DNA from: Bacteroidota bacterium
Lineage (GTDB): Bacteria > Bacteroidota > Bacteroidia > Bacteroidales > JAIFNL01
Assembly (NCBI GenBank): GCA_020047755.1
Contig: JAIFNL010000066.1
Span: 1-34,369 of the forward strand
DNA: 34,369 bases
Direction of reading: 5' to 3'
Every line of letters starts with the position of its first letter. Positions within the stretch are counted from its first letter, which is position 1. Under the pieces are notes generated by a model that ran no database searches, was not told where the DNA came from, and saw only the letters and a list, made by a program, of their open reading frames with translations. The position numbers and the translations under genes were made by a program. Below are positions 2,786-33,458 of this stretch, piece by piece.

Positions 2786-2796
2786 AAAATTAGAAT

Positions 2797-6537: not shown

Positions 6538-6615
6538 ACGCTACAAAACAAAAAATCACTTGTTAAATTGTTGAATAGACCTGTTTATAAAGTGAAAACT
6601 TTAAAAAAAACAAAA

Positions 6616-6692: not shown

Positions 6693-6735
6693 ATTTTGCG
6701 TATTCCTAATTCCTAAATCCTAATTCTTAATTCAC

Positions 6736-7779: not shown

Positions 7780-7807
7780 AATTTGTATAATAATTTATTG
7801 CATGTAT

Positions 7808-8434: not shown

Positions 8435-8489
8435 AATACGAACTACTTACATTAAATAAAATGATGCTTTTCTAAATACTATTAGCAAA

Positions 8490-8567
8490 TTGATAGCGTA
8501 ACTTGAAAGTAATCAAAGTTATTAAAAAAACAAAATTACGTTGTATTTTCTAAATTCTAATATAGAA
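8490..8567. repeat. Dispersed repeat family Q, degenerate copy D
   Basis: Begins TTGATAGCGTAACTTGAAAGTAA as the reverse-oriented end of family Q (compare 24978-25000). Then follow AACAAAATTACG and TAAATTCTAATA, with internal changes. It occupies most of the 170-base gap between the amidohydrolase and the corrinoid protein gene. Confidence 0.6.
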
Positions 8568-8604
8568 ATTGTTAAATTCTTGAATTATTTTATCCTTTTT
8601 ATTT

Positions 8605-9792
8605 TTAAATCAAAACCGACAACTTGCTAGCACTGCTAATTGTTTGATTTGTAAAATCAAAGCCTGAGATAAGATTAAGTCCGGGTTTTTTGCCTACTTC
8701 GATACTGCCCAACGTCTGTTCTAAGCCCAATGCCTTGGCTCCGTTGATAGTAGCCCATTGCAAAAGCTCCGTGAATGGAATTTGTGGAAAGGCTTTTTGA
8801 ATTTCGAGCATTTCATCTACAATCGACAAGTTATCGTTTGAAGCCAAGCTGTCTGTTCCCAAGCAAATATTGGTGGCTTTTTCTCTAAAAAGCGGTATAT
8901 CTGGCAGTTTATTCTCGATATACAAATTGGCTTTGGGACAAAAAGCCCACGAAAGCTGCTCAAACTCTCGTTCTGCAAATTCAATATCGCTGGCTTTGGT
9001 AAATGTATTGTGAATGAGCAAAGTTCTGCTTTTTTTGTTCATTTTGGGCGCGTAATATTTGAGCGAACTTTCGGCAAAATGCTCTATATAGTTCATATCT
9101 AAGCCCCAAGAGCTGAACATTTCAAAGAGTTCGCCTTTTTTTTTGGCAAACAAATCGTCTTCGCTTGCGGTTTCTTGGTTGTGAATGGAAAGAATAGAAT
9201 TTTCTTTTTCCGAGTTTTTCTTAATCAATTCAAACAACTTTTTAGAAAGCGAATAAGGCGCGTGTGGCACAACAAATGCGGTTAAATTCTTTTTGGTAAA
9301 TTCTTTTTGAATCTTTTTGGCTTCCGAAAAAAGAAACTCGGCTTTGCTAATGTTTGTTCCGAAAGTTTCGATGAAATTAATATATTTGATTGAACTACTT
9401 GCTTTTATAGCAATTGTATAAGCATCGTTCGAAATGTCGCCCACGGCTACAATTCCGGCTGCACGCATTCGTTTATCAGCAGTTTGAGCTGCTTTTTGAA
9501 TTTCTTCTATGCTCAATTGCTTGCGTTTGCTTTGCAATTCTTTTATAAAACCATGTAAATGAGTATGCTTTGTTATTTCGCCTCGCAAATGCGAAAGCTC
9601 CAAATGGCAATGCGTATTAACAAAACCCGGCACTATAACTCCTCCATAAAATTGCATTCCGGCTTCTTCTTTCAAAACGCCTTTAGTATCAACTATTTCG
9701 GTTACTTCGCCATCTTGGTTTAGTTTAATAATGCCGTATTTTAGTATTTCACCAGTTCCTAAATAAATATAATTTGCCGAAAATTTGTACAT
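8605..9792 (-). CDS. Amidohydrolase (SsnA / cytosine deaminase-like metal-dependent hydrolase)
   Basis: A 395-residue cytoplasmic enzyme with a composite beta-sandwich plus TIM-barrel. Metal and catalytic residues of the deaminase/chlorohydrolase type are visible: His61-x-His63 (PGFVNTHCHLELSH), His177 (VPHAPYS), His204 with Glu207 (SIHNQE), a further His261 (LIHNT) and Asp314 (CLGTDSLASND). Such enzymes hydrolytically deaminate purine- or pyrimidine-like or related compounds. One relative, aminofutalosine deaminase, serves menaquinone synthesis, but nothing here proves that. The gene is first in the minus-strand run, with 170 bases and a repeat fragment before the corrinoid gene, so a functional link is uncertain. 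The start ATG is directly supported by the conserved N-terminal sandwich. Confidence 0.8.
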   Translation of the reverse strand: MYKFSANYIYLGTGEILKYGIIKLNQDGEVTEIVDTKGVLKEEAGMQFYGGVIVPGFVNTHCHLELSHLRGEITKHTHLHGFIKELQSKRKQLSIEEIQKAAQTADKRMRAAGIVAVGDISNDAYTIAIKASSSIKYINFIETFGTNISKAEFLFSEAKKIQKEFTKKNLTAFVVPHAPYSLSKKLFELIKKNSEKENSILSIHNQETASEDDLFAKKKGELFEMFSSWGLDMNYIEHFAESSLKYYAPKMNKKSRTLLIHNTFTKASDIEFAEREFEQLSWAFCPKANLYIENKLPDIPLFREKATNICLGTDSLASNDNLSIVDEMLEIQKAFPQIPFTELLQWATINGAKALGLEQTLGSIEVGKKPGLNLISGFDFTNQTISSASKLSVLI

Positions 9793-19026: not shown

Positions 19027-19722
19027 TTATCCAAGTTCGCTAATTTCTTGCAATTTTGGATAGTCTATGATTTTAATCGTTTTACCTTTCATATCAATTA
19101 TTTTGTCATCTTTAAATTTTTTGAGCATTCTAATAACGCTTTCGGTTGACATGCCCGAAAGCTCGCCCAAATCTTTGCGCGAGAGGGAAAGTTCAAACTC
19201 TGTTTGTTTGAAAATATTGTCGGCTAAACAAATCAAAATATCAGCCAGCTTGCCATACGATTGTTTGTAGGTAAGGCAGTAAAACCTTCCGTTTATTTGG
19301 GTTTTATTGGCACTCAGTATGTTGATAATTTCAAGAGCAAAACTAGCATTTTTGCTTACAATGTCTTTAAAAGTATTGGATTCGATTAGTTTAATTTCAG
19401 AATCGACATAAGCCAAAGCCGAATATTTCAAAATAGAACTATTCTCGGCAAGAGAAGTGAGCCCGAGCATGCCGCCTGTGGGTACTATCCTTAATATGAG
19501 CGTATTGGTATTTCCATCGATAAATACTTTTACCAATCCTTTTTGAACAATCATAATGTGCGAAGCAAAAGTTCCTTGTTTGCAAATAATCTCACCTTTT
19601 TTGTATTTTACAATTACTTCATTCTTTTTAATTAAATCCAACTCCTCTTGACTTAATTTATCAAAACAGTCGCATGGATTGCAATTACTTACTGTGCAGC
19701 TTGTTAGGTTGTTTTTTATCAT
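19027..19722 (-). CDS. Crp/Fnr-family transcription regulator with N-terminal cysteine cluster
   Basis: A 231-residue regulator. It has a cyclic-nucleotide-binding-like sensor domain (about 20-140: VKYKKGEIICKQGTFASHIMIVQKGLVKVF..., PTGGMLGLTSLAEN), a dimerisation helix and a C-terminal winged helix (about 170-230) with the recognition segment LSRKDLGELSGMSTESVIRMLKKFKDD. Upstream of the sensor domain are four closely spaced cysteines, Cys9, Cys14, Cys17 and Cys19. Such a cluster could hold an Fe-S cluster or metal as in FNR, though the spacing differs from the E. coli protein. It is transcribed away from the rhodanese genes across a 38-bp palindrome that overlaps its own promoter, so autoregulation and control of the rhodanese genes are likely. 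Confidence 0.9.
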   Translation of the reverse strand: MIKNNLTSCTVSNCNPCDCFDKLSQEELDLIKKNEVIVKYKKGEIICKQGTFASHIMIVQKGLVKVFIDGNTNTLILRIVPTGGMLGLTSLAENSSILKYSALAYVDSEIKLIESNTFKDIVSKNASFALEIINILSANKTQINGRFYCLTYKQSYGKLADILICLADNIFKQTEFELSLSRKDLGELSGMSTESVIRMLKKFKDDKIIDMKGKTIKIIDYPKLQEISELG

Positions 19723-19748
19723 GTGTTTTTGCTTTATTTTGTACCATG

Positions 19749-19780
19749 CAAATATATAAAAACATATTCATATCAGCAAA
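19749..19780 (-). promoter_or_regulatory. Promoter of the Crp/Fnr-family gene
   Basis: On the minus strand TTTG (19780-19777), 20 bases, then TATATTTG (19756-19749) fits the -33/-7 pattern. The -33 element lies inside the left arm of the 38-bp palindrome, so a protein bound there should affect this promoter directly. Confidence 0.65.
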
Positions 19781-19810
19781 TAAACTGACGTGCGTCAGTT
19801 TATTTGCTGA
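19773..19810. promoter_or_regulatory. Perfect 38-bp palindrome, probable operator of the divergent promoters
   Basis: TCAGCAAATAAACTGACG, TG, then CGTCAGTTTATTTGCTGA: two arms of 18 bases without a mismatch. The centre TGACGTGCGTCA resembles the dyad sites bound by Crp/Fnr-type dimers. It lies between the regulator gene and the first rhodanese gene, overlaps the regulator's -33 element, and is centred roughly 100 bases upstream of the likely rhodanese start site. No similar site was found elsewhere in the window by eye. Confidence 0.75.
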
Positions 19811-19852
19811 TTAGTTATACTCCAAAACATAAGCTATTGCAGATGTTTTTTC

Positions 19853-19883
19853 TTTGCTAAAGTTAAAAATCTCTCCAATTTTG
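19853..19883 (+). promoter_or_regulatory. Candidate promoter of the first rhodanese gene
   Basis: TTTG (19853-19856), 19 bases, then CAATTTTG (19876-19883) is one mismatch away from TAnnTTTG. A weak -7 element would suit a promoter that depends on an activator, for instance one bound at the upstream palindrome. Confidence 0.45.
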
Positions 19884-19929
19884 CAGCATCAAACAAACAT
19901 TATTAATTTTAATTATATTTTTTAAAAAG

Positions 19930-20484
19930 ATGAAAAGAATAGGATTATTTTTAGCTTCGATGTTTTTAGTATTTGCTTTTGCATGTACAAGTAAAACAGA
20001 AGAAAAACCAGCAGAAGAAGCTTCAACTCAAGCGGCTACTTTTGCTACTGCCGACGAAATGGTAGAAGCTGCCCTTAAAAATGTAACTCAAATTACTGCC
20101 AAAGAAGTAAAAGCAAAAATGGACGCCGAAGAAGGTTTTCTTTTAATTGATGTAAGAGATGCCGACGAGTTCAATGCTGAATTTATACCAAGTGCAGTGA
20201 ATATTTCGAGAGGTTTGTTGGAATTTAGAATTGACAACAAAGAATTTTGGGACGCTGAACAATCGACCCCTCCTACAAAAGAAGAATTGATTATCGTTTA
20301 TTGCAAAAAAGGACACAGAGGTATTTTGGCTGCGCAAGCTCTTCAACAAATGGGCTTTACCAATGTTAAAACTATCGAAGGTGGTTTCTTGAAATGGAAA
20401 GAAGCTTTCCCTGAAGATGTAGAAGTTGGCGTGGTAGCTCCTACCGGTGGTGCTGTTACAAAAAGCTCAGGTGGCGGTTGCTAA
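19930..20484 (+). CDS. Rhodanese-domain lipoprotein
   Basis: A 184-residue exported lipoprotein (lipobox AFAC, Cys19) followed by an acidic linker and one rhodanese domain (about 53-162). The active-site loop is CKKGHR with Cys125, which would carry a persulfide. LLIDVRDADEF and GGFLKWKEAF are the other family blocks. It should transfer or bind sulfane sulfur in the periplasm or at the outer membrane. The C-terminus is unusual: a Gly/Ser-rich tail ends in GGGC, with Cys184 as the last residue. This is the first gene after the divergent promoter region shared with the Crp/Fnr-type regulator. The next rhodanese gene follows after 218 bases. Confidence 0.92.
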   Translation: MKRIGLFLASMFLVFAFACTSKTEEKPAEEASTQAATFATADEMVEAALKNVTQITAKEVKAKMDAEEGFLLIDVRDADEFNAEFIPSAVNISRGLLEFRIDNKEFWDAEQSTPPTKEELIIVYCKKGHRGILAAQALQQMGFTNVKTIEGGFLKWKEAFPEDVEVGVVAPTGGAVTKSSGGGC

Positions 20485-20702
20485 TAAATAGTAAATAAAG
20501 TTCAAAGTTAGGTGTATCTTTATTGCATACATTTAACTTTGTACTTAACGTAAATTACCTAACTTACAAGTTTAACTTTTTAAAAGAATAACTTTCTTTT
20601 TAGTAAGCAAAAAAACGACAAAGAATATTCTATTAATTACATGCTTAGAATATTTCTTTAAAGAAAAAATCAAATCAATAACACAAACAAAAAAAAATTA
20701 AG

Positions 20703-21710
20703 ATGAAAAAGTTTAGATTTTATTTCTTTTTAATGCTGTTAATTCCTACGGTATTATTTACAAGTTGCAAAGATACAGAAAACGAAGTTACTGACCCTGC
20801 AATTACTACGCTAACAAATTACATCACAACTAATGCGTTAGATTTAGACGTAGTTACAACTGGTTTTGTAGTAGGTGCTCCTGCTACCGATGCCGATGTT
20901 GCTGCTTTTTTAACTCCTTATCATGTAATCGACCTTCGTTCGGCTACTGATTTTAATGCTGGACATATCAATGGTGCTAAAAACGTTGCTTTTGCTAATA
21001 TCTTAGCTGAAGTTGCTGCTGCCGGAACTAAAAAAATATTAGTTGTATGCTATACCGGACAAACTGCTTGCTATGCTACTGCATTATTAAGATTATACGG
21101 AAAACCTGACACTCAAGCTCTTAAATGGGGTATGAGTGGTTGGAATGTTGCTTATGACAAATGGACTTCAAACACAACAGGAAACCCTGCAAGCGGACAC
21201 GCAAACTGGAATACGAATGCTGCACCAACCGAAGCTACTTACGAATTGCCTGCTATTACAAGTGCGCTTACCGATGGTAATGCAATTTTGAAAGAAAGAG
21301 TTGAAAAAGTAGTAGCTGAAGGTACTAAAACTGTTACAAATACTGAATTATTGACAAACCACGCTAACTATTTCATCAACAACTATTTTTCAGCAACTAA
21401 CTATACCGAGTTTGGTCACGTAGTAGGTGCTCACAGAATCAACCCTATGACTTTGGCTGGTAATACAATGAAAAACCTCGACCCAAGCAAGAAAATTATA
21501 ACTTATTGCTACACTGGTCAAACTTCGGCTATCATTACTGCTTACCTTAGAGTATTAGGTTACGATGCTTACAGTTTATTGTTTGGTATGAATGGTTTGT
21601 ACAACAGCAATGCTGCTTGGGGAACTGATGCTAACGATACTGACTTTGCCAACAAATGGAAAGCGAGTAACATTAAAAGCTTAAGTACTGTTCCTAGTCC
21701 TAGTAAATAA
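20703..21710 (+). CDS. Tandem-rhodanese lipoprotein
   Basis: A 335-residue lipoprotein (lipobox LFTSC, Cys22) with two rhodanese domains, about 60-155 and 200-310. Both keep a catalytic cysteine in the same loop, CYTGQT (Cys116 and Cys269), and each ends in a 'GMSGW' or 'GMNGL' turn. Two active loops in one chain is less common than the usual one-active, one-silent pair. Apart from the loop, the domains are well diverged. Aromatic and Asn/Thr-rich linkers suit an envelope protein. Neighbouring rhodaneses and the porin suggest a role in uptake or exchange of sulfane sulfur. The exact donor and acceptor cannot be told from the sequence. Confidence 0.88.
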   Translation: MKKFRFYFFLMLLIPTVLFTSCKDTENEVTDPAITTLTNYITTNALDLDVVTTGFVVGAPATDADVAAFLTPYHVIDLRSATDFNAGHINGAKNVAFANILAEVAAAGTKKILVVCYTGQTACYATALLRLYGKPDTQALKWGMSGWNVAYDKWTSNTTGNPASGHANWNTNAAPTEATYELPAITSALTDGNAILKERVEKVVAEGTKTVTNTELLTNHANYFINNYFSATNYTEFGHVVGAHRINPMTLAGNTMKNLDPSKKIITYCYTGQTSAIITAYLRVLGYDAYSLLFGMNGLYNSNAAWGTDANDTDFANKWKASNIKSLSTVPSPSK

Positions 21711-21821
21711 TTATTTTTAAAATAGTGTATGAAAGAAAACGCATCTTTTGCTGTTTTCTTTCTACACATATTATCTATTGCAAAACATAAAACTAACAAA
21801 CAACTTTAAAGTAAAATATAA

Positions 21822-22853
21822 ATGAAAAAGATATTTTTCCTTTCCCTCACATTGGTATTTCTTTTTGCCTCGCAACTTGTAAAAGCACAAGGTTGCGAAA
21901 GTTCTTCTCCTTCTGAAGGCGAAGATGCTGGTGGTGTAAAAATATTTGGGTTTATTCAACCTCAATTTACTTACACACTTACCGACCCTGCTACAAACAC
22001 ATTCAGCTTCAAAAGAGCTCGAATAGGTGTAACTGGCGATATTCCTTACGATTTTTCGTATTATGTAGTAATGGAAACGAGTGCATTTGTAAGCCAAACT
22101 GGAAATCCTTATTTGCTCGATGCTTACGTTTCGTACAAACGTTTCAAATGGTTCAATGTATCGTTTGGTTCGTTCAAACAACCTTTCGGACAAGAAGTTA
22201 ATACTGCTTGCTCGGGTTTGCATACAATAGAGCGTTCGATAGTTTCTGACCAAATAGCTTCGCCACAACGCGACATGGGTATTATGTTTTTAGGTGGCGA
22301 CAACACCACAAAAGTAAAATACGCTTTTGCTATTATGAATGGCAGAGGTCTTGGAGTAAAAGACAACAACACTGCCAAAGATTTTATTGGTCGTTTGACT
22401 TTCAAACCACTTGAATTTTTACGCATTGGCGGTAGTTTCCGCTACGGTTTCCCTAATGTAAGCGATGTAGAACGTACATCTTTTGCCGGAGAATTAGAAA
22501 TTAACAAAAGTAATATTCTTCTTCAAGCCGAATATATTTATGACGAAGGCGACTATAACCGTGCTGCTGGCGGTGGCTGCGGTGCCGACCCACTTACACT
22601 TGGCGAAAAACGCGATGGAGCTTACGTTATGTTAGGCTACATGACTTCGTTTATGTTGCAACCTATCGTGAAATACGATTATTTTGATACTGACAAAGAT
22701 ATTGACAACAACAACATGAGTGTAATTACTGTTGGTGCAAACTATTTCTTCAACGACAATACCCGTTTGCAACTAAACTATCAATACAAAGCCGAACAAG
22801 GTGCGGAAGTTAAAAACGACGCAATAGGCTTACAACTACAAGTGAAATTTTAA
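21822..22853 (+). CDS. OprO/OprP-like outer-membrane porin
   Basis: A 343-residue exported beta-barrel protein. The signal peptide ends at about LVKAQ. The mature chain starts with a short Cys/Ser-rich segment (GCESSSPSEGEDAGG), then alternating strands such as VKIFGFIQPQFTYTL, FSFKRARIGVTGDI, WFNVSFGSFKQPFGQE and NYFFNDNTRLQLNYQY. It ends in LQLQVKF, with the terminal Phe typical of outer-membrane barrels. The pattern fits phosphate-selective porin O/P relatives, which pass small anions. Placed between rhodanese genes, it may admit a sulfur oxyanion or polysulfide; this is inference only. Antisense frames over it are shadows. Confidence 0.85.
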   Translation: MKKIFFLSLTLVFLFASQLVKAQGCESSSPSEGEDAGGVKIFGFIQPQFTYTLTDPATNTFSFKRARIGVTGDIPYDFSYYVVMETSAFVSQTGNPYLLDAYVSYKRFKWFNVSFGSFKQPFGQEVNTACSGLHTIERSIVSDQIASPQRDMGIMFLGGDNTTKVKYAFAIMNGRGLGVKDNNTAKDFIGRLTFKPLEFLRIGGSFRYGFPNVSDVERTSFAGELEINKSNILLQAEYIYDEGDYNRAAGGGCGADPLTLGEKRDGAYVMLGYMTSFMLQPIVKYDYFDTDKDIDNNNMSVITVGANYFFNDNTRLQLNYQYKAEQGAEVKNDAIGLQLQVKF

Positions 22854-22865
22854 TTGTTAATTGTG

Positions 22866-23104
22866 TTAAATTGTTAAATTGTTAAATTGTTAAATTGTTA
22901 AATTGTTTTTGAAGTCGTTCTTAAAGTCGATTTTAATCATTAGCTACGGCATTTATGCCGTAGTAAATTAACAAATGTGCATCTGGGCTTTAGCCCAAAC
23001 GTTTAGAGTAAGGGCTAAAGCCTAAATCTTCTTTCTTTTTTCTAAATTAACAATTTAACAATAGAACAATTTAACAATAGAACAATTTAACCATAGAACC
23101 ATAG
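22866..23104. repeat. Tandem arrays and hairpins between porin and sulfurtransferase
   Basis: 22866-22905 is five perfect units of TTAAATTG. 23049-23104 is a 16-bp unit, AACAATTTAACAATAG, in three copies (the third with one change) plus half a unit. The two arrays are partly complementary and could close a large stem. Between them are three small palindromes: CTACGGCATTTATGCCGTAG (about 22942), GGGCTTTAGCCC and AGGGCTAAAGCCT. The right array ends 12 bases before the sulfurtransferase start. Confidence 0.85.
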
Positions 23105-23116
23105 AAAAGATATAAA

Positions 23117-23965
23117 ATGAAAAAAATAGTATTTAGTATCAATTTATTTGTACTTTTCCTTTTGATAGGAAAAATAGCAACAGCTCAAGACGTAATCACA
23201 GTAACTGAGCTAAGCGAAAAAATGAAAGACAAAAACACAGTTGTAGTAGCCTGTGTAAAACCAGAAGATTATGCAAAAACTCACATCAAAGATGCCATTC
23301 ATATTCTTCACAAAGATTTGTACAAAACCAGTGGACCCGAAGGCATTTTGAAACCTTCTGCCGATATAGCTAAGCTATTAGGCTCGAAAGGTCTTAGCAA
23401 TACCAACCTTATTGTACTTTACGACGATGGCGAAGGTAAATATGCCGGACGTATGTATTGGATTTTGAAATATTTGGGTTGCAAAGATGTGAAAATTCTC
23501 GATGGACATATCAAAGCTTGGAAATCGGCACGCAAACCCGTAACAGCTACTGCCACAGTGGGCAAAAAAGTTACCTTTACTGCCACCCCTAACAGTGCTT
23601 TGTTAGCTACCATGAGCGATGTACAAGCAGGAAACGCTGTACTTGTAGATGCTCGCAGCGCAGCCGAATTTAACGGAACCGACGACAGCAAACTTGCTCG
23701 CAAAGGACACATTCCGGGTGCTATCAATTTTGAATTCAAACAAGTGCTTACCGATGGTAAACTAAAATCGAAAAGCGAATTAGAAGGTTTGTTCAAAAAA
23801 GCGGGCATGACCAAAGACAAAAACATCATTCTTTACTGCGAAACCAGCGTTAGAGCAGGTATTATTTTCTTTGCTCTTAGCGAATGTGGCTACACCAAAG
23901 TAAAAGTATATGATGGTGCTTTCAACGAATGGATTGCAACACCTGCTAATAAAGTAGATAAATAA
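23117..23965 (+). CDS. Exported two-domain sulfurtransferase (thiosulfate/3-mercaptopyruvate type)
   Basis: A 282-residue protein with a cleavable signal peptide (to about ATAQ, residue 24). It has the classic rhodanese layout. The N-terminal domain (about 25-140) has lost the cysteine: its loop reads YDDGEGKYAGR. The C-terminal domain (about 160-275) keeps Cys241 in YCETSVRAG. The blocks LVDARSAAEFNG and KGHIPGAINFEF are typical. Periplasmic sulfur transfer from thiosulfate or a similar donor is expected. It is the third rhodanese protein in 4 kb. The gap from the porin is filled by tandem repeats, and a terminator follows. Confidence 0.92.
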   Translation: MKKIVFSINLFVLFLLIGKIATAQDVITVTELSEKMKDKNTVVVACVKPEDYAKTHIKDAIHILHKDLYKTSGPEGILKPSADIAKLLGSKGLSNTNLIVLYDDGEGKYAGRMYWILKYLGCKDVKILDGHIKAWKSARKPVTATATVGKKVTFTATPNSALLATMSDVQAGNAVLVDARSAAEFNGTDDSKLARKGHIPGAINFEFKQVLTDGKLKSKSELEGLFKKAGMTKDKNIILYCETSVRAGIIFFALSECGYTKVKVYDGAFNEWIATPANKVDK

Positions 23966-24424
23966 ATTTAATTGATAATTGATAATTAAAAAAGAAATTG
24001 GCTTTCGTAGCTAATACCAAGGGGAAACCTTTCTTTTTCATCTTAAAAACCGTTTTTGCAGTAAATTGCAGAGGCGGTTTTTTTGTGATTAAAAAGTAGC
24101 CTGTTTGTGAATTGTTCTTTAGGTAAACATAGTAATGAACCAAAATTAATTGTATCTGTTGTTTTGCCAAATGCTTAAAAATAAATCTCATGCCTTATTG
24201 CTGTATTTTATATAAATTCAGTTAGTCATCTAAAGTACTAAATTTTAGTAAATTAATAATTGTCCACTTTTTATCCACCCTCATATTTATGGTTTGTATA
24301 TCTATTTTGATTAATTTTGCGTTTAATATTAACCTGCTTATCTGTTACCAAGTATAAGCAAAAATTGCAAGGCGTAATCCGAAAAGCCAAAAGAGTAGGA
24401 AAAAATGGAATAACACAAAAAAAC
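23966..24424. other. Intergenic region with terminator and candidate promoter
   Basis: Holds a short AATTGAT array (about 23970-23989), the terminator at 24045-24084 and, for the next gene, a TAATTTTG -7 element at 24312-24319. The nearest TTTG lies only 15 bases upstream, so the promoter is doubtful. No gene is seen. Confidence 0.45.
24045..24084 (+). terminator. Intrinsic terminator after the sulfurtransferase gene
   Basis: AAAAACCG (24045-24052) pairs with CGGTTTTT (24075-24082), with an inner TGCA/TGCA pairing and a T run after the stem. It probably ends the rhodanese/porin transcript. Confidence 0.75.
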
Positions 24425-24940
24425 ATGAAAAAATTTAGCTTTAAATTAGTATTAATGGTTTTAGCTCTTTCGATGGTATTTGTTTCGTGTAAAAAAGATG
24501 AAACGGAGTTAAGCAACGAGGCAACTTACGACGGCACAACGCTTACCTTGAAAAAAGGGTTTCATGAAAACCATGGCGGCTGGTATCAAACTATTTATTT
24601 TGCAGCCAAAGACATTACTTTCGACCAAAACGCATTTTCTTATTCCGAAGAAAGCGATGGGCTTGTTATTGATTTCTACCTTCCAATAGGAGCTTCTTTT
24701 GGTGGTACTTACCAATTGACCAACGAATTTGAAGTAGATAATACCGTGAGAAATGCAGAGATAAGAATAAATGGTGTATCGATTTACTCTACCGATGAAG
24801 ATACAGGAAGCGTAGTAATAACAAAAGATGGCGATATTTACGAAATAACTTGTTCTTTTACTATCGATGGTAAAAAATTGGAAGCCTACTACAAAGGAGA
24901 ATTAACTTATGCCAACTTATTCATGCCAGGCAAAAAATAA
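24425..24940 (+). CDS. Small Bacteroidota lipoprotein of unknown function
   Basis: A 171-residue lipoprotein (MKKFSFKLVLMVLALSMVFVSC, lipidated Cys22) with a beta-rich mature domain (THR/GLY-rich strands such as GTTLTLKKGFHENHGGWYQTIYF, then GDIYEITCSFTIDGKKLEAYYKGELTYAN). I do not recognise the family. The pattern 'TLxxGxxxxxG.....IxF' followed by a terminal 'ITCSFTIDGK.LEAYYKGEL' is common in secreted Bacteroidota proteins that may bind ligands. The frame is open from 24317, but the lipobox sets the start at 24425. It lies downstream of a terminator, so it is probably its own unit, convergent with the cytochrome operon. Confidence 0.75.
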   Translation: MKKFSFKLVLMVLALSMVFVSCKKDETELSNEATYDGTTLTLKKGFHENHGGWYQTIYFAAKDITFDQNAFSYSEESDGLVIDFYLPIGASFGGTYQLTNEFEVDNTVRNAEIRINGVSIYSTDEDTGSVVITKDGDIYEITCSFTIDGKKLEAYYKGELTYANLFMPGKK

Positions 24941-24976
24941 ATAGTGCCGTAATAATCGAAAACCTTCTAAAAATAA

Positions 24977-25058
24977 TTGATAGCGTAACTTGATAGTAAC
25001 TGAAATTCTAAGAAAAGCAAAATTACGCAATTTCCCCCAAATTCTAATAACAAATTGT
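24977..25058. repeat. Dispersed repeat family Q, copy C (inverted)
   Basis: Reads TTGATAGCGTAACTTGATAG, then GAAATTCTAAGAAAAGCAAA, then ATTACGCAATTTCCCCCAAA and TTCTAATAACAA. It is the reverse complement of copies A and B with very few changes. Confidence 0.85.
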
Positions 25059-25245
25059 ACAATTGTTATTTTATCGTGGAGAACTGGAAAATTTATAATT
25101 TTAGCTAACTTTTTTTTAAAAATCACCATTTTTTTACGCTATCAAATATTAAAGAGCTAATCGAGTAAGGAAGTAATCTAGAAACAGTCTTTGGGAATGA
25201 TAGTATTTTTTTGCAATTAAAGTTTAACTGTGAATGTAGGATTAA

Positions 25246-25276
25246 TTGATACGATGACATGGAGTCATCGTATCAA
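25246..25276. repeat. 31-bp hairpin R, copy 2
   Basis: TTGATACGATGAC and GTCATCGTATCAA form a perfect 13-bp stem around ATGGA. It differs from copy 1 only in the centre. It lies 14 bases past the stop codon of the cytochrome gene and could act as that operon's 3' stem. Confidence 0.85.
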
Positions 25277-25290
25277 TAATTATGTTATTG

Positions 25291-26160
25291 TTATACATTT
25301 TTTTTAGCAAGTCTTGCTATTTTTAATATTTGTAAAACAATGTAGATAATAACTACCCAAACGCTTCCTGCTATACCAATGTATAGCAACATTATCCACC
25401 AAGGCGCATTTGCGCTGGTTCCCCAGATGCTTGCTTGAGCCGTTAGGTCGTGATGTTTTGAAGGCGTAGCCCAGTCTATTTCTATTTTTTCTTCTTGTTT
25501 AAATCGTTTGGCAACAACTATAATGGTTGCTTTTCCGAGCGAGTCGCCAGGTAAATCTTCGGGAAGGTTTACGCTAAATGCACCCGTAGCATTGGTTTTG
25601 CCTTTTCCAATAGTCAAGTTACCAAAGATTCGTTTGATAGAGATTTCGATGTCGGCACCCACTAGTTTTACTTCTTTTCCGGTAGCATCTTTGGTAGTAA
25701 TGCTTGCCGAAATACTTTTATCGTCGGGATTGGCTACGATAGAAAGTTTTGCGTTTTTATCCACGGTAGCATCTGTTTTGTCGCCAGCACGCAGGTAAGC
25801 AATCACTGCCCAACGCTCGTCGTCGGAAAGAACAGCTTTAAAACTAGGCATTGCTCCTTTGCCAGTAGTCATTTTGTAAAAAATCTCGCCATCGGTATTG
25901 GCTGTTTTGAAGGCAGCAGAGCCTAAGTCGGTGGGTGGGGGAACTAAAGGCATAAAATTAGCCGCTCCCACATCGCCGTGGCACGATTTGCAATTCTTTT
26001 GATATACTTCAAAACCTTTTTCGGAGTTTGCCGCGTTAAGTTCCAAAGGGTTTGTTTTGCTCTTTTCGCCATCGGGAATTTCCCACGCTTGCGCCTGTAC
26101 AAATGTAGCAAACATCAATAACAAAACACTCAGGCTTATTGTATTTTTTATATGTTTCAT
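25291..26160 (-). CDS. Membrane-anchored mono-heme cytochrome c
   Basis: A 289-residue exported protein. The signal peptide ends at about VQAQA. A class I cytochrome c domain (about 45-130) binds heme through Cys57-Lys-Ser-Cys60-His61, with Met104 (GKGAMPSF) the likely sixth ligand. It is followed by a beta-sandwich like a carboxypeptidase-regulatory domain (about 135-230: ADIEISIKRIFGNLTIGKGKTNATGAFSVNLP) and a single C-terminal transmembrane helix (about 258-282). The heme domain thus faces the periplasm on an inner-membrane anchor. It is the last gene of the Fe-S/NrfD operon, 96 bases after NrfD, and probably passes electrons to or from that complex. The gap holds a 7-bp tandem array. Confidence 0.88.
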   Translation of the reverse strand: MKHIKNTISLSVLLLMFATFVQAQAWEIPDGEKSKTNPLELNAANSEKGFEVYQKNCKSCHGDVGAANFMPLVPPPTDLGSAAFKTANTDGEIFYKMTTGKGAMPSFKAVLSDDERWAVIAYLRAGDKTDATVDKNAKLSIVANPDDKSISASITTKDATGKEVKLVGADIEISIKRIFGNLTIGKGKTNATGAFSVNLPEDLPGDSLGKATIIVVAKRFKQEEKIEIDWATPSKHHDLTAQASIWGTSANAPWWIMLLYIGIAGSVWVVIIYIVLQILKIARLAKKNV

Positions 26161-26199
26161 TCTAAAAATATATTAAAATTTCGTTTTTAATTGTTAATT

Positions 26200-26241
26200 A
26201 TCAATTATCAATTATCAATTATCAATTATCAATTATCAATT
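26200..26241. repeat. Tandem array of ATCAATT
   Basis: Six perfect 7-bp units, followed by CCTAATT-type units to about 26264. It fills the gap between the NrfD and cytochrome c genes. The same heptamer in inverted form builds the stems at 1141-1230 and 23970-23989. Confidence 0.9.
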
Positions 26242-26256
26242 CCTAATTTCTAATTC

Positions 26257-27618
26257 CTAATTATTTTTATAAGCTTCTTCAAGTTCTTCTTCTCTTACAC
26301 CTTTTTCGAGGGCAATTTCCCATACTGGCATAATAGGAATAACTTTAGCTAAAATGGTGAGAATAAGCAAGGCAATAGAAATAGCTCCCATAGTAATAGC
26401 CCATTCAAAACCATTAGGCCAATACACCATAAAATGTTCGGGAACATTTTGCACAGGCAAAAATGGGTGCTCTAAGGTAGGAGCAACAATGATGAAGCGT
26501 TTCAAAAAAGCACCAATTACCACAAAAACTCCAATGATAAGCATAGGAAATGGTTTGCGCATTTTTTTGAACAACAACAAAACGATAGGCAAGATAAGTC
26601 CGAATATTTGAACAAACCAGAACAATAAAGCATATTTGCCCACAAAAAGCATTTCTAAGTGATGACCATCGGCGGTTTTCATTTTGTAACCTGGCACAAG
26701 AAACTCGTTGAGGTTGAAATACAAATAAAGTAAACTAGTCAAAACCAAAAGTTTACCAACCAAGTCGAAATGTTTTTCGGTAATGTATTCTTTCAAATTG
26801 TATGAGTTTCTAAACACAAACAAGGCAATAGCCATTGCGCCTACACCTGCCGGAAAAGCACCTGCCACAAAGTAAGGACCAAAAATAGTAGAATCCCAAC
26901 CCACACGCAAAGTCATAGCAAAAAGCCAAGAGGTAACTGTGTGAATACCAAATGCAACAGGGATAATTAAAATAGAAAGCGTGCGCATCGATTTGTAAAT
27001 GATTTTCTTTTGCTCTGGCAAACCAGCGAAGCCAAGCGATAAGATTTTATAAATCATTACTTGCCATTTTGGGGCATCTTTGAAGCGGTTGCGCATAATT
27101 GCCATATCGGGAATGAGTGGCAAAATAAGCAACAACAAACTGATAACTATGTAAGTAGTAATAACGGTAATGTCCCAAACAATGGGCGACTGAATGCGTC
27201 CGTGTAGGAAAACATTCAAAAGCCTGTCGGGGCGACCCATATCGAAAACGATAATAGCACCCGCCATCATCACAAACGCAATGGCAATAAGTTCGGCAAT
27301 GCGTGTAATTGGGGTAATTCCAGGAATTTTGAGCAGTCCAAGTACTGCACTAATCAACATTCCTACCAAGCTAACAGCTACAAAAAACACAAAGGTAGAA
27401 ATGTACAATCCCCAAGAAACGATGTCGCGCATGGCGGTAACTCCCAAGCCATCGCGCAATTGAATAAAGTATGCCATTGCGGCGGTAATCAACACAGTAG
27501 CAAGAACTACTATCCATGCTGTAAACCCATAATGCTTAGATAATGGCGCAAATAAATCCGTTTGAATTTTTTCAAAGAGTTGTTTCGACTCCTCTTTTGG
27601 TAATGCTTCGTGATTCAT
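26257..27618 (-). CDS. NrfD/PsrC-family quinone-interacting membrane protein
   Basis: A 453-residue integral membrane protein with about ten transmembrane helices, belonging to the polysulfide reductase C / NrfD family, which exchanges electrons between the quinone pool and a periplasmic Fe-S subunit. Family landmarks include FDMGRPDRLLNVFLHG (about 125-140), GIHTVTSWLFAMTLRVGWDSTIFGPYFVAGAFPAG and, near the end, LKRFIIVAPTLEHPFLPVQNVPEHFMVYWPNGFEWAITMG. The length suggests the ten-helix subtype found in complexes such as ActC or DsrP, rather than the eight-helix one. The partner Fe-S subunit is encoded 92 bases upstream. No large molybdopterin subunit follows or precedes, which is atypical for polysulfide reductases. 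Confidence 0.9.
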   Translation of the reverse strand: MNHEALPKEESKQLFEKIQTDLFAPLSKHYGFTAWIVVLATVLITAAMAYFIQLRDGLGVTAMRDIVSWGLYISTFVFFVAVSLVGMLISAVLGLLKIPGITPITRIAELIAIAFVMMAGAIIVFDMGRPDRLLNVFLHGRIQSPIVWDITVITTYIVISLLLLILPLIPDMAIMRNRFKDAPKWQVMIYKILSLGFAGLPEQKKIIYKSMRTLSILIIPVAFGIHTVTSWLFAMTLRVGWDSTIFGPYFVAGAFPAGVGAMAIALFVFRNSYNLKEYITEKHFDLVGKLLVLTSLLYLYFNLNEFLVPGYKMKTADGHHLEMLFVGKYALLFWFVQIFGLILPIVLLLFKKMRKPFPMLIIGVFVVIGAFLKRFIIVAPTLEHPFLPVQNVPEHFMVYWPNGFEWAITMGAISIALLILTILAKVIPIMPVWEIALEKGVREEELEEAYKNN

Positions 27619-27710
27619 TTTATATTGTTTTTATAAATTGGTATTAATTTTATCTGTTTAAATTATAAAAAAACACTGCTAAAAACAGGTTTGTTAATTT
27701 TTTAGCGCAA

Positions 27711-28643
27711 CTAAACGTGCTCGTTGTTGTCTAAAGTTGTTTTGCCATTCAAATTGAATTCAAACAAACGGTCTTTTGCAGGCAAGTAGTAAACGCTAGG
27801 TTTTGTACCCAATTCAGGGAGCAAGGTATATCCGGCGTTGTTTTTGATTAACTCGCTAAAACGTACAGTTTCTTTGGTAGTTCCGTTGGTAACAGCATCT
27901 TCGTTCATGTCGCCAAACCAGTACACACCGTTAGGGCAAGCACTTGCGCAGTAGGGCATTTTTTCGTCGCGCAATTGGTCGGCACTAAACAAACATTTAG
28001 AAACGGTACCACGTTTTTGAGGCACGTTGAGTTCTACATCATACTCTCTGTCATCGGCAGCCACTTTGGGCTCTGACCAGTTGAAAATACGAGCCGAGTA
28101 GGGGCAAGCTGCAATGCAAAAGCGGCAACCAATGCAACGCTCATTGTCGATAAGCACAATTCCGTCGCTGCGTTTGAAGGTAGCATCTACTGGGCATACT
28201 TTGGTGCAAGGCGGGTTGTCGCAATGCTGGCAAGGCTTTGGCATAAAGAAAGGAGCTGTTTTTTCAGCATCTTGCATAGCCAATACGTTGATGTGGTGCT
28301 GTTCGGGTTTAAGTTCGTGTGCGCTTTGGCAAGCTGCCATGCACATACGAGCGTTTCGGCATTTAGAAAGGTCAATAACCATAGTCCATTTACGACCGGC
28401 GATTCCTTTCCTGCCTCTTTTTTGCAAATCTTGTTCTGTTTTTTTGCCAAATTCTTTTAAATGCGAAGTGTCCACTTCCATTATTTTACCATCGGCGGTA
28501 AGTACCTTGGCAAGTTTTCCGGTTTCAGCTTTTACGCCATCAATGGTAGAGAATAAACCCACTCCGGCAAGTGAACCGGCACCAAATGCCAATCCGGCTT
28601 TTAAGAAATCTCTTCTGGTTTTTTTGTTTTTCTTATCTTCCAT
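27711..28643 (-). CDS. Tat-exported ferredoxin-type Fe-S subunit (PsrB/DsrO-like) with altered cysteine motifs
   Basis: A 310-residue periplasmic electron-transfer subunit. The twin-arginine signal KKTRRDFLKAG is at residues 7-17. Four cysteine motifs follow. II (Cys138, 141, 146, 150) and III (Cys170, 173, 176, 180) are complete. Motif I reads CRNARMCMAAC: Cys95, Cys101 and Cys105 with Ala98 where the second cysteine is usual. Motif IV has Cys217, Cys232 and Cys236 with Ser220 in the corresponding place. In this fold motifs I and IV share two clusters, so the paired losses affect exactly those two, leaving perhaps 3Fe-4S clusters or none. It should link the NrfD protein to a periplasmic partner. 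It is first in a three-gene operon with nrfD and cytochrome c. Confidence 0.9.
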   Translation of the reverse strand: MEDKKNKKTRRDFLKAGLAFGAGSLAGVGLFSTIDGVKAETGKLAKVLTADGKIMEVDTSHLKEFGKKTEQDLQKRGRKGIAGRKWTMVIDLSKCRNARMCMAACQSAHELKPEQHHINVLAMQDAEKTAPFFMPKPCQHCDNPPCTKVCPVDATFKRSDGIVLIDNERCIGCRFCIAACPYSARIFNWSEPKVAADDREYDVELNVPQKRGTVSKCLFSADQLRDEKMPYCASACPNGVYWFGDMNEDAVTNGTTKETVRFSELIKNNAGYTLLPELGTKPSVYYLPAKDRLFEFNLNGKTTLDNNEHV

Positions 28644-29364: not shown

Positions 29365-30180
29365 ATGAAAATTACAAAACTAAGTATTTTAGCTTTTCTT
29401 TTTGCGTTTGGCGTTTTTGCTTGTACAAGCGGAACTGACGAAAATTCAGAAAATAAAGATTCTTTAGCCGTGGAAACAATCCCCGATGTGGAAGTAAAAA
29501 AGATTGATTACCCTCTAAATAATCCAGTTGAAATTAGTAAAATGCTTAACCAAGCAGGGGCAGCTTACACAACAGATGTAACGAATTCGCCAAAAAATAT
29601 AGATAAATACATGACCGAAAAAGACAAAGCCTTGGCTTTGGGTATTTACGGTGCTGATTTAGCTTATGTTTCTACTTACAACAAATCGCAAGAAACCAAC
29701 TTACTTTTTGAGGTTTGCAAAAAAACAAGCGACGAGCTTGGTATTTCAAATATTTACGATGAAGCTACTTTGGCAAAAATAGAAGCAAATATCGAAAACA
29801 AAGATACATTACATAGTATTATATCTAATTCATTTCATGGAACTTATCAATCGTTGCAAGAAAACGGCAAAGGTGCTGTTTCGGTATTGGTTTTAGCTGG
29901 TGGCTGGGTAGAAGGTTTGTTTATTTCGCTCGAGCTTACTCAAAATGCCATTGACAAAAAGAAAATGATGAGCGGTATTGCTAATCAAAAACTAAACTTA
30001 GACAAATTGTTGGTAGCTATGGAAGTATATGCTGACAATGAAGCCGTTAAAGCTACAATAGCTGAGTTGCAAAAAATAGAAGCTGTTTACACAAAAATAA
30101 ATCCTGAATCGCTTACGCCTGCTCAATTAAAAGAGTTATCGAAAGTTACAGGTACCGTAAGAGCTGCAATGGTAAAATAG
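29365..30180 (+). CDS. Lipoprotein, paralogue of the partial gene at 33610
   Basis: A 271-residue lipoprotein (lipobox VFAC, Cys20) with an acidic linker and a mostly helical mature domain. I do not recognise a named family. It is clearly related to the partial protein starting at 33610: ALGIYGADLAYVSTYNKSQETNLLFEVCKKTSDELGISNIYD matches FGIYASDLAYSVVSENKQQSIDYFNVTKELADALHIAKGYS, and VLAGGWVEGLFISLE matches IIAGGWIESIYIAVN. The two flank the ABC transporter, which suggests a shared envelope role, perhaps as accessory or substrate-contact proteins. It is divergent from the Fe-S/NrfD operon across a 721-base gap. Confidence 0.8.
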   Translation: MKITKLSILAFLFAFGVFACTSGTDENSENKDSLAVETIPDVEVKKIDYPLNNPVEISKMLNQAGAAYTTDVTNSPKNIDKYMTEKDKALALGIYGADLAYVSTYNKSQETNLLFEVCKKTSDELGISNIYDEATLAKIEANIENKDTLHSIISNSFHGTYQSLQENGKGAVSVLVLAGGWVEGLFISLELTQNAIDKKKMMSGIANQKLNLDKLLVAMEVYADNEAVKATIAELQKIEAVYTKINPESLTPAQLKELSKVTGTVRAAMVK

Positions 30181-30335: not shown

Positions 30336-33300
30336 ATGGGTGATTCAATTTTAAGAGCATTAATGCGCTTGTTTGCAATTCTTGCAACAGTAAACAAAGA
30401 TGGTGTTTCAAAATCCGCTCGAACAATTGTAGAAGCCTACCTAAAACAGCACTTAACACCTCGTTTGGTGTCTGAATATTTGAAACTTTTTGATGAATTT
30501 ATCAATCTTCACCACAAAGCCTCAGATAAAGAAGATAAAAAAGAAAGAAAGCGCAATTCGGTAAACTCGGTAAAAGTACTTGTTATTTGTCAGCAAATAA
30601 ATGAAACACTGCAACAAAAAGAAAAGATAATTGTATTTTTGCGTTTGCTCGAATTTGTAAACGAAGAAGGGTTGGTAAATGAAAAAGAGCTTGAATTTAT
30701 CGACACAGTAGCCGATGTATTTAACTTTGACCTAAACGAACGTGAATTGATGAAAACGTTTATTATAGGTAAAGTTCAAAACCTTGAAGACAAAACCGAT
30801 GCGTTAATAATCAATGGCGATAGTGTTTTGCAACCTCCATTTGTAACTCTCGATTTGCCCGAACATTCGACCAATAAGTTTAAACATATTTACCGAAATG
30901 GATTTGTAGGCAGAATCAACGTAATTCATATCAAAAGCACCAATATTTTTGTATTCAGATATTTGGGTGGCGATAATCTGTTTTTTAGTGGACACCCGCT
31001 TATTCCGCGCCGCACGTACATTATGGAGAATGGTGGTGTAATAAAAGGTGGGAAAATAAAACCAGTTTACCACACCGATATTGCCGGAAAATTTTTCCAA
31101 GCCGAAACAAAATCTACCGTTGTTTTAAATGTCGAAAATGTTGTATTCAAATTTAGAGGTAGCGAGAATGGCTTGCACGAATTTAATTTTTCAGAGAAAT
31201 CGGGACAACTCATAGGCATTATGGGCGGTAGTGGAGTTGGGAAATCCACGTTGCTCAATATATTGAATGGCAGCATAATACCCAATAGCGGAAAAATAAC
31301 CATCAATGGACTAGATATTCACCAAGATAAAGAAAAACTAGAAGGCGTTTTGGGTTTTGTGCCACAAGACGACTTATTAATTGAAGAATTAACGGTATTT
31401 CAAAACTTATATTTCAATGCAAAGCTTTGTTTTTCGGAGCTAACCGAAAAACAAATTATTAAAAAAGTTGCCAAAGTTCTTTCCGATTTGGAACTCACCG
31501 AAATTAAAAACTTAAAAGTAGGATCGCCACTTAATAAATATATTAGCGGTGGGCAACGAAAACGTTTAAATATAGCACTCGAACTCATTCGCGAACCCGC
31601 TATATTGTTTGTAGATGAGCCAACTTCGGGCTTGTCGTCGATGGATTCTGACGCGGTAATGCTGTTGTTGCGTCGCCAAACGTTGAAAGGCAACTTGGTA
31701 ATTGTGAACATTCACCAACCCTCGTCGGATATTTACAAGCTGTTTGACAAAACCCTTATCATGGACAAAGGTGGCAGAATTATTTACTCTGGCAACCCGA
31801 TTGATGCCATTGAATACTTCAGAATAGCAGCACATTACGTAAATACCGAAGGCGGCGAATGTATTACTTGCGGCAATGTAAACCCTGAGCAAATACTACA
31901 AATAGTAGAAGAAAAAATAGTAAACCAATACGGAAAATTTACGCGCAACCGCCGATTTGCTCCGTATGAATGGTTTAATTTATACAAAGAAAAAATAGAA
32001 AAAAATATTCAACGCATAGACAGCACGGAAGAAATTCCAACAAGTGCATTCAAAGTTCCATCACGTTGGAAGCAAATGAATATTTTTATTATCCGAAATA
32101 TATTATCGAAGCTAACCAATTTGCAATATTTACTTATTACATTTTTGGAAGCTCCACTTTTGGCTATCATAATTGCTTATTTTACGAAATACATTAGCGG
32201 CGATGTAGGAAGCCCCGATTTGTATATCTTTAGCGACAACCAGAACATTCCTGCCTATATTTTCATGTCGGTTATTGTAGCCATCTTTTTAGGTTTATCG
32301 CTTAGTGCCGAAGAAATAATCAAAGACCAGCGAATTTTGAAACGCGAGAAGTTTCTAAACCTTAGCCGATTTAGTTATATAAACTCTAAAGTATTGGTTC
32401 TGTTTGTTATTTCGGCTATTCAGATGCTTACCTTTGTGCTCATTGGCAATACCATTTTGGATATGGAGGGCATGAATCTGTCGTTTTGGTTGATGTTGTT
32501 TACAGCTACGGCGGCAGCTAATTTAATAGGCTTGAACATTTCATCAGCACTTAACTCGGTAGTTACAATTTATATACTTATCCCGTTTATTTTGGTGCCT
32601 CAATTGCTTTTTAGTGGTGTAATTGTCAATTACGACAAACTTCACAAGAACATCACTTCGCATTATTATGTGCCAGTGATAGGTGATGTGATGATTTCGC
32701 GCTGGTGCTACGAGGCTTTGACGGTAGAACAATTCAAAAACAATGCCTATCAAAAGCTTTTTTTCAATACTGAACGCAAAATGAGTCAATATTCATTTAT
32801 TTCTACCTTCTTAATTCCTACTTTGACCGACGAAATTAAAGATATTGACAATTTTATACAAAAAAAAGACTTAGAGAATGCAAAAAAGCAACTTAATAGA
32901 TTAACCAACGAGGTTGTTTCTATAAATGAGCTGCCTAAATCTCTAACTTCAAAATTTAATGTTGATAAATTGACCCCTCAAAAGTTTGATGCCAAAGCAC
33001 AAACAGAACTTAAAAACTATTTTAAAGTTATTAAAAAATATTACAACGAAAAATACAAAATAGAAACCAACAAGCGCGACTTGCTTTACAACAGTTTGAT
33101 ACAAAAAGCAGGTGGCGTGGAAGCTGTATTGTTACTTAAAAAAGAGCACCATAACAAAAATCTTTCGGATATGTTGCTAAACAAAAATGAATTGAAAAAG
33201 ATTTTTGCTACGGAAGATTATTTTGTTCAAAAAAGCGACCCTATTTACAAATATCCAACCAACAAATTTGGGCGTGCTCATTTTTACGCACCCGTTAAAA

Positions 33301-33458
33301 AGCTAGGCAATAGCTTTATAGATACTTATTGGTTCAATCTTTTGTTCGTTTGGTTGTCGAGTTTAGTTTGGTATTTTGTTTTGTATTTCGATTTGCTTAG
33401 AAAATTATTAGAAAAGCTATCTAACTTTTCGTTAAAAAAGAAAAAAATACTGGGATAA
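30336..33458 (+). CDS. ABCG-like ABC transporter fusion with N-terminal TerB-like domain
   Basis: A 1040-residue half-transporter. Residues about 1-150 are helical and resemble a TerB-type domain. About 155-250 form a beta-rich linker (GRINVIHIKSTNIFVFRY...). Residues 260-480 are the ATPase: Walker A GGSGVGKS (297-304), Q-loop Gln344, signature ISGGQ (403-407), Walker B ILFVDE (423-428) and switch His460 (NIHQPSSD). About 585-780 and the last 60 residues hold the ABC2-type transmembrane helices. Between the penultimate and last membrane parts is an unusually long soluble segment (about 795-995), Lys/Glu-rich and probably helical. The overall ATPase-then-membrane order is as in ABCG proteins. 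The substrate is unknown. Two paralogous lipoproteins flank it. Confidence 0.87.
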   Translation: MGDSILRALMRLFAILATVNKDGVSKSARTIVEAYLKQHLTPRLVSEYLKLFDEFINLHHKASDKEDKKERKRNSVNSVKVLVICQQINETLQQKEKIIVFLRLLEFVNEEGLVNEKELEFIDTVADVFNFDLNERELMKTFIIGKVQNLEDKTDALIINGDSVLQPPFVTLDLPEHSTNKFKHIYRNGFVGRINVIHIKSTNIFVFRYLGGDNLFFSGHPLIPRRTYIMENGGVIKGGKIKPVYHTDIAGKFFQAETKSTVVLNVENVVFKFRGSENGLHEFNFSEKSGQLIGIMGGSGVGKSTLLNILNGSIIPNSGKITINGLDIHQDKEKLEGVLGFVPQDDLLIEELTVFQNLYFNAKLCFSELTEKQIIKKVAKVLSDLELTEIKNLKVGSPLNKYISGGQRKRLNIALELIREPAILFVDEPTSGLSSMDSDAVMLLLRRQTLKGNLVIVNIHQPSSDIYKLFDKTLIMDKGGRIIYSGNPIDAIEYFRIAAHYVNTEGGECITCGNVNPEQILQIVEEKIVNQYGKFTRNRRFAPYEWFNLYKEKIEKNIQRIDSTEEIPTSAFKVPSRWKQMNIFIIRNILSKLTNLQYLLITFLEAPLLAIIIAYFTKYISGDVGSPDLYIFSDNQNIPAYIFMSVIVAIFLGLSLSAEEIIKDQRILKREKFLNLSRFSYINSKVLVLFVISAIQMLTFVLIGNTILDMEGMNLSFWLMLFTATAAANLIGLNISSALNSVVTIYILIPFILVPQLLFSGVIVNYDKLHKNITSHYYVPVIGDVMISRWCYEALTVEQFKNNAYQKLFFNTERKMSQYSFISTFLIPTLTDEIKDIDNFIQKKDLENAKKQLNRLTNEVVSINELPKSLTSKFNVDKLTPQKFDAKAQTELKNYFKVIKKYYNEKYKIETNKRDLLYNSLIQKAGGVEAVLLLKKEHHNKNLSDMLLNKNELKKIFATEDYFVQKSDPIYKYPTNKFGRAHFYAPVKKLGNSFIDTYWFNLLFVWLSSLVWYFVLYFDLLRKLLEKLSNFSLKKKKILG

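Follow-up and report, generated by a model that had tools for sequence, protein, structure and literature searches.

In the window analysed here, contig C218 (34,369 nucleotides) of a 4.64-Mb Bacteroidota draft genome in 313 contigs, exported rhodaneses, an outer-membrane porin and a Crp/Fnr-type regulator lie next to an operon for an Fe-S protein, an NrfD-type membrane subunit and a cytochrome c. Is this one sulfur-handling system, or are these two neighbours? The initial annotation proposed a single system, with the cytochrome or another protein in place of the molybdenum subunit. On balance, we favour two independent units side by side, an anchored sulfane-sulfur relay (19027-23965) and a quinol module (25291-28643). 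The eight genes of the initial inventory were borne out by intact open reading frames and Pfam domain matches (Table 1). The gene list had only omitted a lipoprotein gene between the two halves (24425-24940), which probably lies outside both units. It was also right that no molybdopterin gene accompanies the Fe-S/NrfD operon: there is none within the window.

A conserved and widespread Bacteroidota cassette makes up the rhodanese half. Scanning about 85,000 species genomes with an alignment of the tandem rhodanese gave at least 560 confirmed relatives, of which 80 loci were kept and annotated; all counts of cassette loci below refer to these 80. They carry Bacteroidota names, bar one labelled Chlorobi. 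An earlier impression of rarity, from a class-wide search that found the tandem rhodanese in 3/295 genomes, was dropped when the larger scan showed it to be common in particular lineages. In the 80 loci, the porin gene is adjacent to that of the tandem rhodanese, and an ortholog of the regulator is placed divergently in many of them. By the presence of a catalytic-loop cysteine, the single-domain lipoprotein RhoA (Cys125 in a CKKGHR loop), the tandem rhodanese (CYTGQT loop in both domains) and the SseA-like sulfurtransferase (second domain only, YCETSVR) qualify as active rhodaneses. RhoA closes in a disordered tail, SSGGGC, and both its Cys125 and the C-terminal tail are kept in relatives.

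A few layouts recur among the loci. In the octahaem tetrathionate reductase (OTR) type (Bacteroidales, Carboxylicivirga, others), the Crp gene is divergent from OTR–cytochrome b–RhoA–tandem–porin–SseA-like. The Psr type of Flavobacteriaceae reads PsrABC–YeeE–YeeE–Rho3–Rho2–RhoT–tandem–porin. The stand-alone type, to which the window belongs, has the regulator facing RhoA–tandem–porin–SseA-like, and a fourth has a fused YeeE in front of the cassette. The SseA-like gene is kept in OTR-linked and stand-alone cassettes, and in three loci (L118, L127, L169) a Psr-type and an OTR-type set are neighbours.

Large cytochromes were also seen. In most Psr-type loci (L106, L107, L110 and other Flavobacteriaceae), a cytochrome of about 630 residues with 10-12 haem motifs lies divergently beside psrA and may be a further redox partner. 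An 893-residue fusion of cytochrome b and a multihaem cytochrome (11 CXXCH; L098 2167-4845, G172:C51) follows a Rieske-like protein on a contig that also has a cassette, and a similar 900-residue, 11-haem protein lies near psrA in L222.

We searched the window's own genome by family for molybdopterin enzymes and rhodaneses and found two further sulfur loci. Contig C254 has the PsrABC/PhsABC architecture: a twin-arginine (Tat)-exported molybdoenzyme of 742 residues (PsrA; a MopB subunit of the Psr/Phs branch) with adjacent PsrB (Fe-S, 177 residues) and PsrC (NrfD, 341 residues). It also contains two YeeE/YedE transporters (PF04143) and three exported rhodaneses ending in Gly-Gly-Cys (GGC). The best PDB match of this PsrA is Thermus Psr (2VPW/2VPZ, 655 bits, nearly full length), and it stays below the PhsA equivalog cut-off (479 vs 694). 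Alongside an OTR-family cytochrome, contig C240 holds a tandem rhodanese, a Crp-type regulator and a cytochrome b carrying PAS domains, and it encodes one GGC-tailed exported rhodanese. The OTR passes TIGR04315 (597 vs a cut-off of 375) and matches PDB 1SP3 (459 bits); its relatives carry eight CXXCH motifs. The PAS-fused cytochrome b (444 residues; L022 250-1584 on G000:C240) resembles a membrane sensor-like quinol subunit, while in most OTR-type cassettes the protein has about 205 residues.

The molybdopterin subunit, which the initial annotation had suggested looking for elsewhere in the genome, is therefore present on C254. It has PsrB and PsrC of its own, contrary to the idea that it had been replaced. 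The same association appears across genomes. Comparing 50 cassette genomes with a class-wide sample of 295 (own genome included), PsrA was found in 41/50 vs 3/295 and OTR in 26/50 vs 3/295 (Fisher p = 5e-43 and 2e-25, with phylogeny ignored). Forty-nine of the 50 encode at least one of the two; the sole exception is a 2.3-Mb metagenome-assembled genome, in whose short locus (L150) RhoA still adjoins a cytochrome b of the OTR type. PsrA is encoded elsewhere in every one of the 13 stand-alone-cassette genomes, and such PsrA loci as were inspected carry GGC-tailed rhodaneses. The likely partner enzymes of the cassette are encoded elsewhere in the same genome. The proposal that these rhodaneses handle sulfane sulfur outside the cytoplasm gains support from a conserved rhodanese-porin cassette tied to PsrABC and OTR.

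The Fe-S/NrfD/cytochrome c operon is a separate, mobile quinol module of the NrfCD type, merely adjacent to the cassette. It combines a Tat-exported Fe-S subunit with NrfD and has no molybdenum subunit. Orthologs of its NrfD, at 43-59% identity in a first sample and up to 63% among cassette genomes, form a subfamily apart from the matches at about 30% that occur everywhere and are probably ActC. A plasmid search with NrfD gave only relatives at about 30%, and one annotated example resembles an Alternative complex III operon. Neighbours of the orthologs are Fe-S and cytochrome c genes, the latter either fused as in the window (haem domain, Ig-like domain and transmembrane segment in the alignment) or split into a protein of about 300 residues and a monohaem cytochrome of about 140; other neighbours vary.

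None of the 80 cassette loci carries the Fe-S, NrfD and cytochrome c genes. Around some 40 Fe-S/NrfD loci, no cassette-family rhodanese was a neighbour, except on contig G172:C51, where a divergent NrfD paralogue (35%) and a cassette are about 10 kb apart. G345, a relative from the same genus (taken to be G295, as the contig numbers match), keeps the cassette, PsrA and OTR, and gave no NrfD match. Relatives thus keep one half without the other, contrary to what the initial annotation expected of a single system. At the level of whole genomes an association persists, though: an NrfD ortholog at 56% identity or more occurs in 8/13 stand-alone-cassette genomes vs 2/37 others (p = 9e-5, uncorrected for phylogeny), and in the class sample the two closest orthologs sit in both non-self PsrA genomes.

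Known complexes with similar subunits did not fit the operon. DsrMKJOP was rejected on scores (DsrO 181 < 200, DsrP 136 < 350) and on the lack of M, K and J in the operon. Compared with Alternative complex III, the Fe-S protein has 310 residues, there is one NrfD and one monohaem cytochrome c, and the MopB-like ActB, the pentahaem ActA and the second NrfD are missing. For MccACD/SirACD, the window has no octahaem catalytic subunit, and the OTR on C240 has its own cytochrome b. A related arrangement (L060-L091; Fe-S, NrfD, the protein of about 300 residues and the small monohaem cytochrome) was seen in about 30 Bacteroidia genomes. Its companions are a DUF5777 barrel, a lipoprotein of about 130 residues with an unusual CX4CH motif, and EB_dh-like and YceI-like proteins; it is possibly an outer-membrane respiratory system.

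In their promoter sites, the two halves also differ. The promoter between the regulator and RhoA contains a perfect 19-bp inverted repeat with a 2-bp spacer, a probable operator judging by its core, CTGAC-N4-GTCAG, a variant of TTGAT-N4-ATCAA. We scanned for the latter, FNR-type site with up to one mismatch and found it in 25/31 related divergent promoters, where shuffles gave an expectation of 0.7. An exact site lies upstream of the genome's own psrA. The 300 bp upstream of the window's Fe-S gene hold neither an FNR-type site nor a perfect Crp-core palindrome, and most Fe-S operons have no FNR-type site within the same distance. This pattern fits two regulons. Other inverted repeats were seen in related promoters: a different, perfect one of 18 bp between Crp and RhoA in L109, and, in L101, a large hairpin enclosing an FNR-like site 5' of RhoA.

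The regulator itself was described in the initial annotation as having a cysteine cluster. Of 37 relatives, all have Cys9, 27 have Cys19 and 24 have Cys47; the additional Cys14 and Cys17 of the window are not conserved. This is not the canonical cluster of FNR, and identity with FNR was rejected, since the four-cysteine [4Fe-4S] signature is absent and only Cys9 is invariant.

The most distinctive property of the rhodanese proteins is the terminal GGC. Counting GGC within two residues of the C-terminus in the proteins of the 80 loci, it was present in Rho3 (38/38), Rho2 (31/31) and RhoA (27/31), altogether 96/100, and in 0/933 non-rhodanese neighbours. A pattern scan of the own genome for GG-GG-Cys-stop found six open reading frames of at least 60 codons ending in GGC-stop, and five are exported rhodaneses. 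The sixth, the only non-rhodanese found, encodes an exported, Cys-containing protein of 96 residues ending GCGTTKTHGGC (G000:C120, about 2790-3088; L232). Some orthologs close in GGGCGG or SGGCGG, the motif of SoxY; GGCGG is limited to few. All 69 Rho2 and Rho3 proteins have lost the rhodanese catalytic Cys, with Gly, Ser, Asn or Ala in its place, and GGC is invariant in the Rho3 alignment.

The arms also vary together. Over their last 10 residues, Rho2 and Rho3 share 94% identity within a genome vs 79% between genomes (0/5000 permutations), with bodies only 25% identical. In a larger set of 43 genomes, arm identity was 87% within genomes vs 62% when permuted, and the net charge of the tails correlated at 0.90. 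RhoT tails follow the same within-genome pattern, and the linkers are Lys-rich or Glu-rich. The AlphaFold model of RhoA gives a predicted local distance difference test (pLDDT) score of about 95-98 for residues 41-160 and 38-50 for the last 15; that of a Rho3 displays a transmembrane helix, a rhodanese domain and a disordered tail. Disordered and matched within each genome, these tails resemble flexible carrier arms with a docking partner in common.

From these observations we infer how the two units could work. The first would relay sulfane sulfur outside the cytoplasm, controlled through a presumed signal by a Crp/Fnr-type regulator of its own. The OprO/P-like porin would let in sulfur anions (thiosulfate, tetrathionate or polysulfide), whose sulfane sulfur would be taken up by the active-site cysteines of the tandem rhodanese and the SseA-like sulfurtransferase. 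RhoA, lipid-anchored at its N-terminus, would pass the sulfur by persulfide transfer to the terminal Cys of its flexible SSGGGC arm, which may swing between partners like the GGCGG arm of SoxY. The relay would thereby feed (or empty) its clients, the molybdoenzyme PsrABC (C254) and, together with its cytochrome b, the octahaem OTR (C240). The second unit would be a menaquinol:cytochrome c module (Fe-S protein, NrfD and membrane-anchored monohaem cytochrome c) that shuttles electrons between quinol and periplasmic redox proteins, for which a catalytic subunit would not be required. For the wider family, we see about even chances that the proteins are membrane-anchored pseudo-rhodaneses without catalysis, several per genome, that bear sulfane sulfur on a GGC swinging arm and whose arms, having co-evolved, dock on a single Psr-type molybdoenzyme or octahaem cytochrome. 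They would be a new class of carrier, a SoxY-like solution on a rhodanese scaffold, widespread in Bacteroidota.

Other explanations were weighed. Adjacency in the window, the enrichment of NrfD orthologs in stand-alone-cassette genomes and the company of PsrA with the two closest ones would suit a single system in which the cytochrome takes the place of the molybdenum subunit. We find this improbable: the halves are unlinked both in the cassette loci and around the orthologous NrfD operons, the ortholog is missing from the same-genus relative, which keeps the cassette, the genome has a molybdenum subunit with its own PsrB and PsrC, and the 300 bp upstream of the Fe-S gene hold none of the promoter sites. 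It is less improbable, although still unlikely, that the GGC tail serves for sorting or attachment (anchoring, cross-linking) and does not carry sulfur. The tails are homogeneous within a genome, like processing signals, and have Lys-rich or Glu-rich linkers; but the proteins are already anchored at the N-terminus by a lipobox or transmembrane helix, almost all GGC ends in the window's genome belong to rhodaneses, the GGC is kept exactly where the catalytic Cys is lost, and some orthologs end in GGCGG.

The direction of flow is where an alternative deserves most room, and a minority chance goes to an oxidative cassette, in which sulfane sulfur from sulfide or polysulfide is oxidised through multihaem cytochromes and PsrABC working as a quinone reductase. 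Many marine Flavobacteriaceae, Polaribacter and Winogradskyella among them, carry the Psr type; they are mostly aerobic, and a gene for a 10-12-haem cytochrome lies beside Psr-type loci. In contrast, the enzymes characterised under the names OTR and Psr/Phs are reductases, control of the Crp/Fnr type suits anaerobic respiration, and the window genome pairs OTR with a PhsC-like cytochrome b. Selenite or tellurite handling, as by the rhodanese and porin ExtHI of Geobacter, is very improbable. The NCBIfam matches are partial (ExtI 65 bits, ExtH 52 bits) and far under the cut-offs of 150 and 200 (NF040900/NF040901), on which ExtHI membership was rejected; the extHI cluster does include multihaem cytochromes (PMC5877670), yet relatives have Psr and OTR as partners in place of the ext cytochromes.

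A limitation of the two-unit explanation, and of the carrier arm within it, is that the case is computational throughout, and several points weigh against them. The co-occurrence statistics are uncorrected for phylogeny. The cassette, PsrABC and OTR lie on three different contigs of the draft (C218, C254 and C240), so linkage cannot be read from it. The association of the NrfD ortholog with stand-alone-cassette genomes is left unexplained, and a loose functional link is possible. The window's tandem rhodanese has no GGC tail, and neither do a few RhoA proteins. Moreover, gene conversion is the main alternative to co-evolution with a docking partner as the source of the similarity of the Rho2 and Rho3 arms.

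Table 1. Features of the two units and the gene between them, in positions of the window
Feature	Position	Strand	Basis
Crp/Fnr-type regulator of the cassette	19027-19722	-	Pfam HTH_Crp_2 and cNMP_binding
Inverted repeat, probable operator	19772-19811	strandless	Crp-family core 19785-19798
RhoA, lipoprotein with single rhodanese domain	19930-20484	+	Pfam; conserved Cys125 and tail; AlphaFold
Tandem-rhodanese lipoprotein	20703-21710	+	Pfam; CYTGQ loop in both domains
OprO/P-like outer-membrane porin (Porin_O_P)	21822-22853	+	PF07396, 89 bits
Exported two-domain sulfurtransferase, SseA-like	23117-23965	+	NCBIfam SseA-like, 129 bits
Lipoprotein between the halves	24425-24940	+	No family match
Exported monohaem cytochrome c, separate module	25291-26160	-	CKSCH, Met104, Ig-like domain, C-terminal transmembrane helix
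NrfD-family quinone-interacting membrane subunit, DsrP-like, separate module	26257-27618	-	Pfam/NCBIfam
Tat-exported 4Fe-4S subunit, NrfC/DsrO-like, separate module	27711-28643	-	Tat motif RRDFLK; Pfam/NCBIfam

Apart from the two units, DUF1638, URO-D-like, B12-binding and amidohydrolase genes stand in a row at 5956-9792 of the window, resembling a corrinoid methyltransferase cluster. A protein of 1040 residues with ABC ATPase and ABC-2 membrane domains (30336-33458) is adjoined by an exported lipoprotein without a known family (29365-30180).

The locus bears on an open question, the handover of insoluble or anionic sulfane sulfur to periplasmic Psr-type enzymes. With one conserved terminal Cys, the carrier idea lends itself to a test by mass spectrometry and a single-residue mutant. 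Hundreds of genomes of Bacteroidota, a phylum seldom counted among sulfur respirers, hold the cassette, among them those of the culturable marine Lutibacter, Polaribacter, Winogradskyella and Carboxylicivirga.

Among known systems, the periplasmic rhodanese-type protein Sud of Wolinella delivers polysulfide sulfur to Psr. Sud is one soluble protein, whereas several anchored and armed proteins are found here. The quinol module resembles NrfCD, MccCD and DsrOP-like modules in joining Fe-S protein, NrfD and cytochrome c without a molybdopterin subunit (PMC3534657, PMC8076601, PMC13047784). NrfCD modules of this kind are quinol-linked donors to periplasmic cytochromes (PMC3534657), and cable bacteria have a DsrOP-like dsrOhPh-tetrahaem locus, also without a molybdenum subunit (PMC13047784). 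The window's module differs in its monohaem, C-terminally anchored cytochrome with an Ig-like domain and in forming its own Bacteroidota clade. Like ExtH/ExtI of Geobacter, the cassette sets an exported rhodanese beside an OprP-like porin (PMC5877670); it differs in its partners, and its scores are below the cut-offs.

The closest parallel to the arm is SoxY of SoxYZ, also periplasmic with a C-terminal Gly-rich Cys arm, where the cysteine of the GGCGG arm carries the sulfur substrate (PMC6067878). Unlike in SoxYZ, the arm is placed on a rhodanese fold, usually ends in GGC, is membrane-anchored and goes with Psr or OTR instead of Sox enzymes; RhoA does not have the SoxY fold with a SoxZ partner.

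Finally, this kind of system is already known from Desulfurivibrio dismutans: exported rhodaneses, a porin and YeeE/YedE are proposed to feed a periplasmic PsrABC (PMC12142623). Our cassette is like its PsrABC operon, with secreted and lipoprotein rhodaneses, porin and YeeE/YedE co-localised, and differs from it in phylum and in the triple-rhodanese protein of D. dismutans. In the literature searched, which is not proof, we found no prior description of a GGC-armed rhodanese or of a Bacteroidota psr/otr-rhodanese cassette. The GGC arm, the dead-rhodanese carriers and the OTR-linked version, all seen here and not described in the passages considered on D. dismutans (PMC12142623), appear new in the same literature, as does the breadth of the cassette in Bacteroidota.

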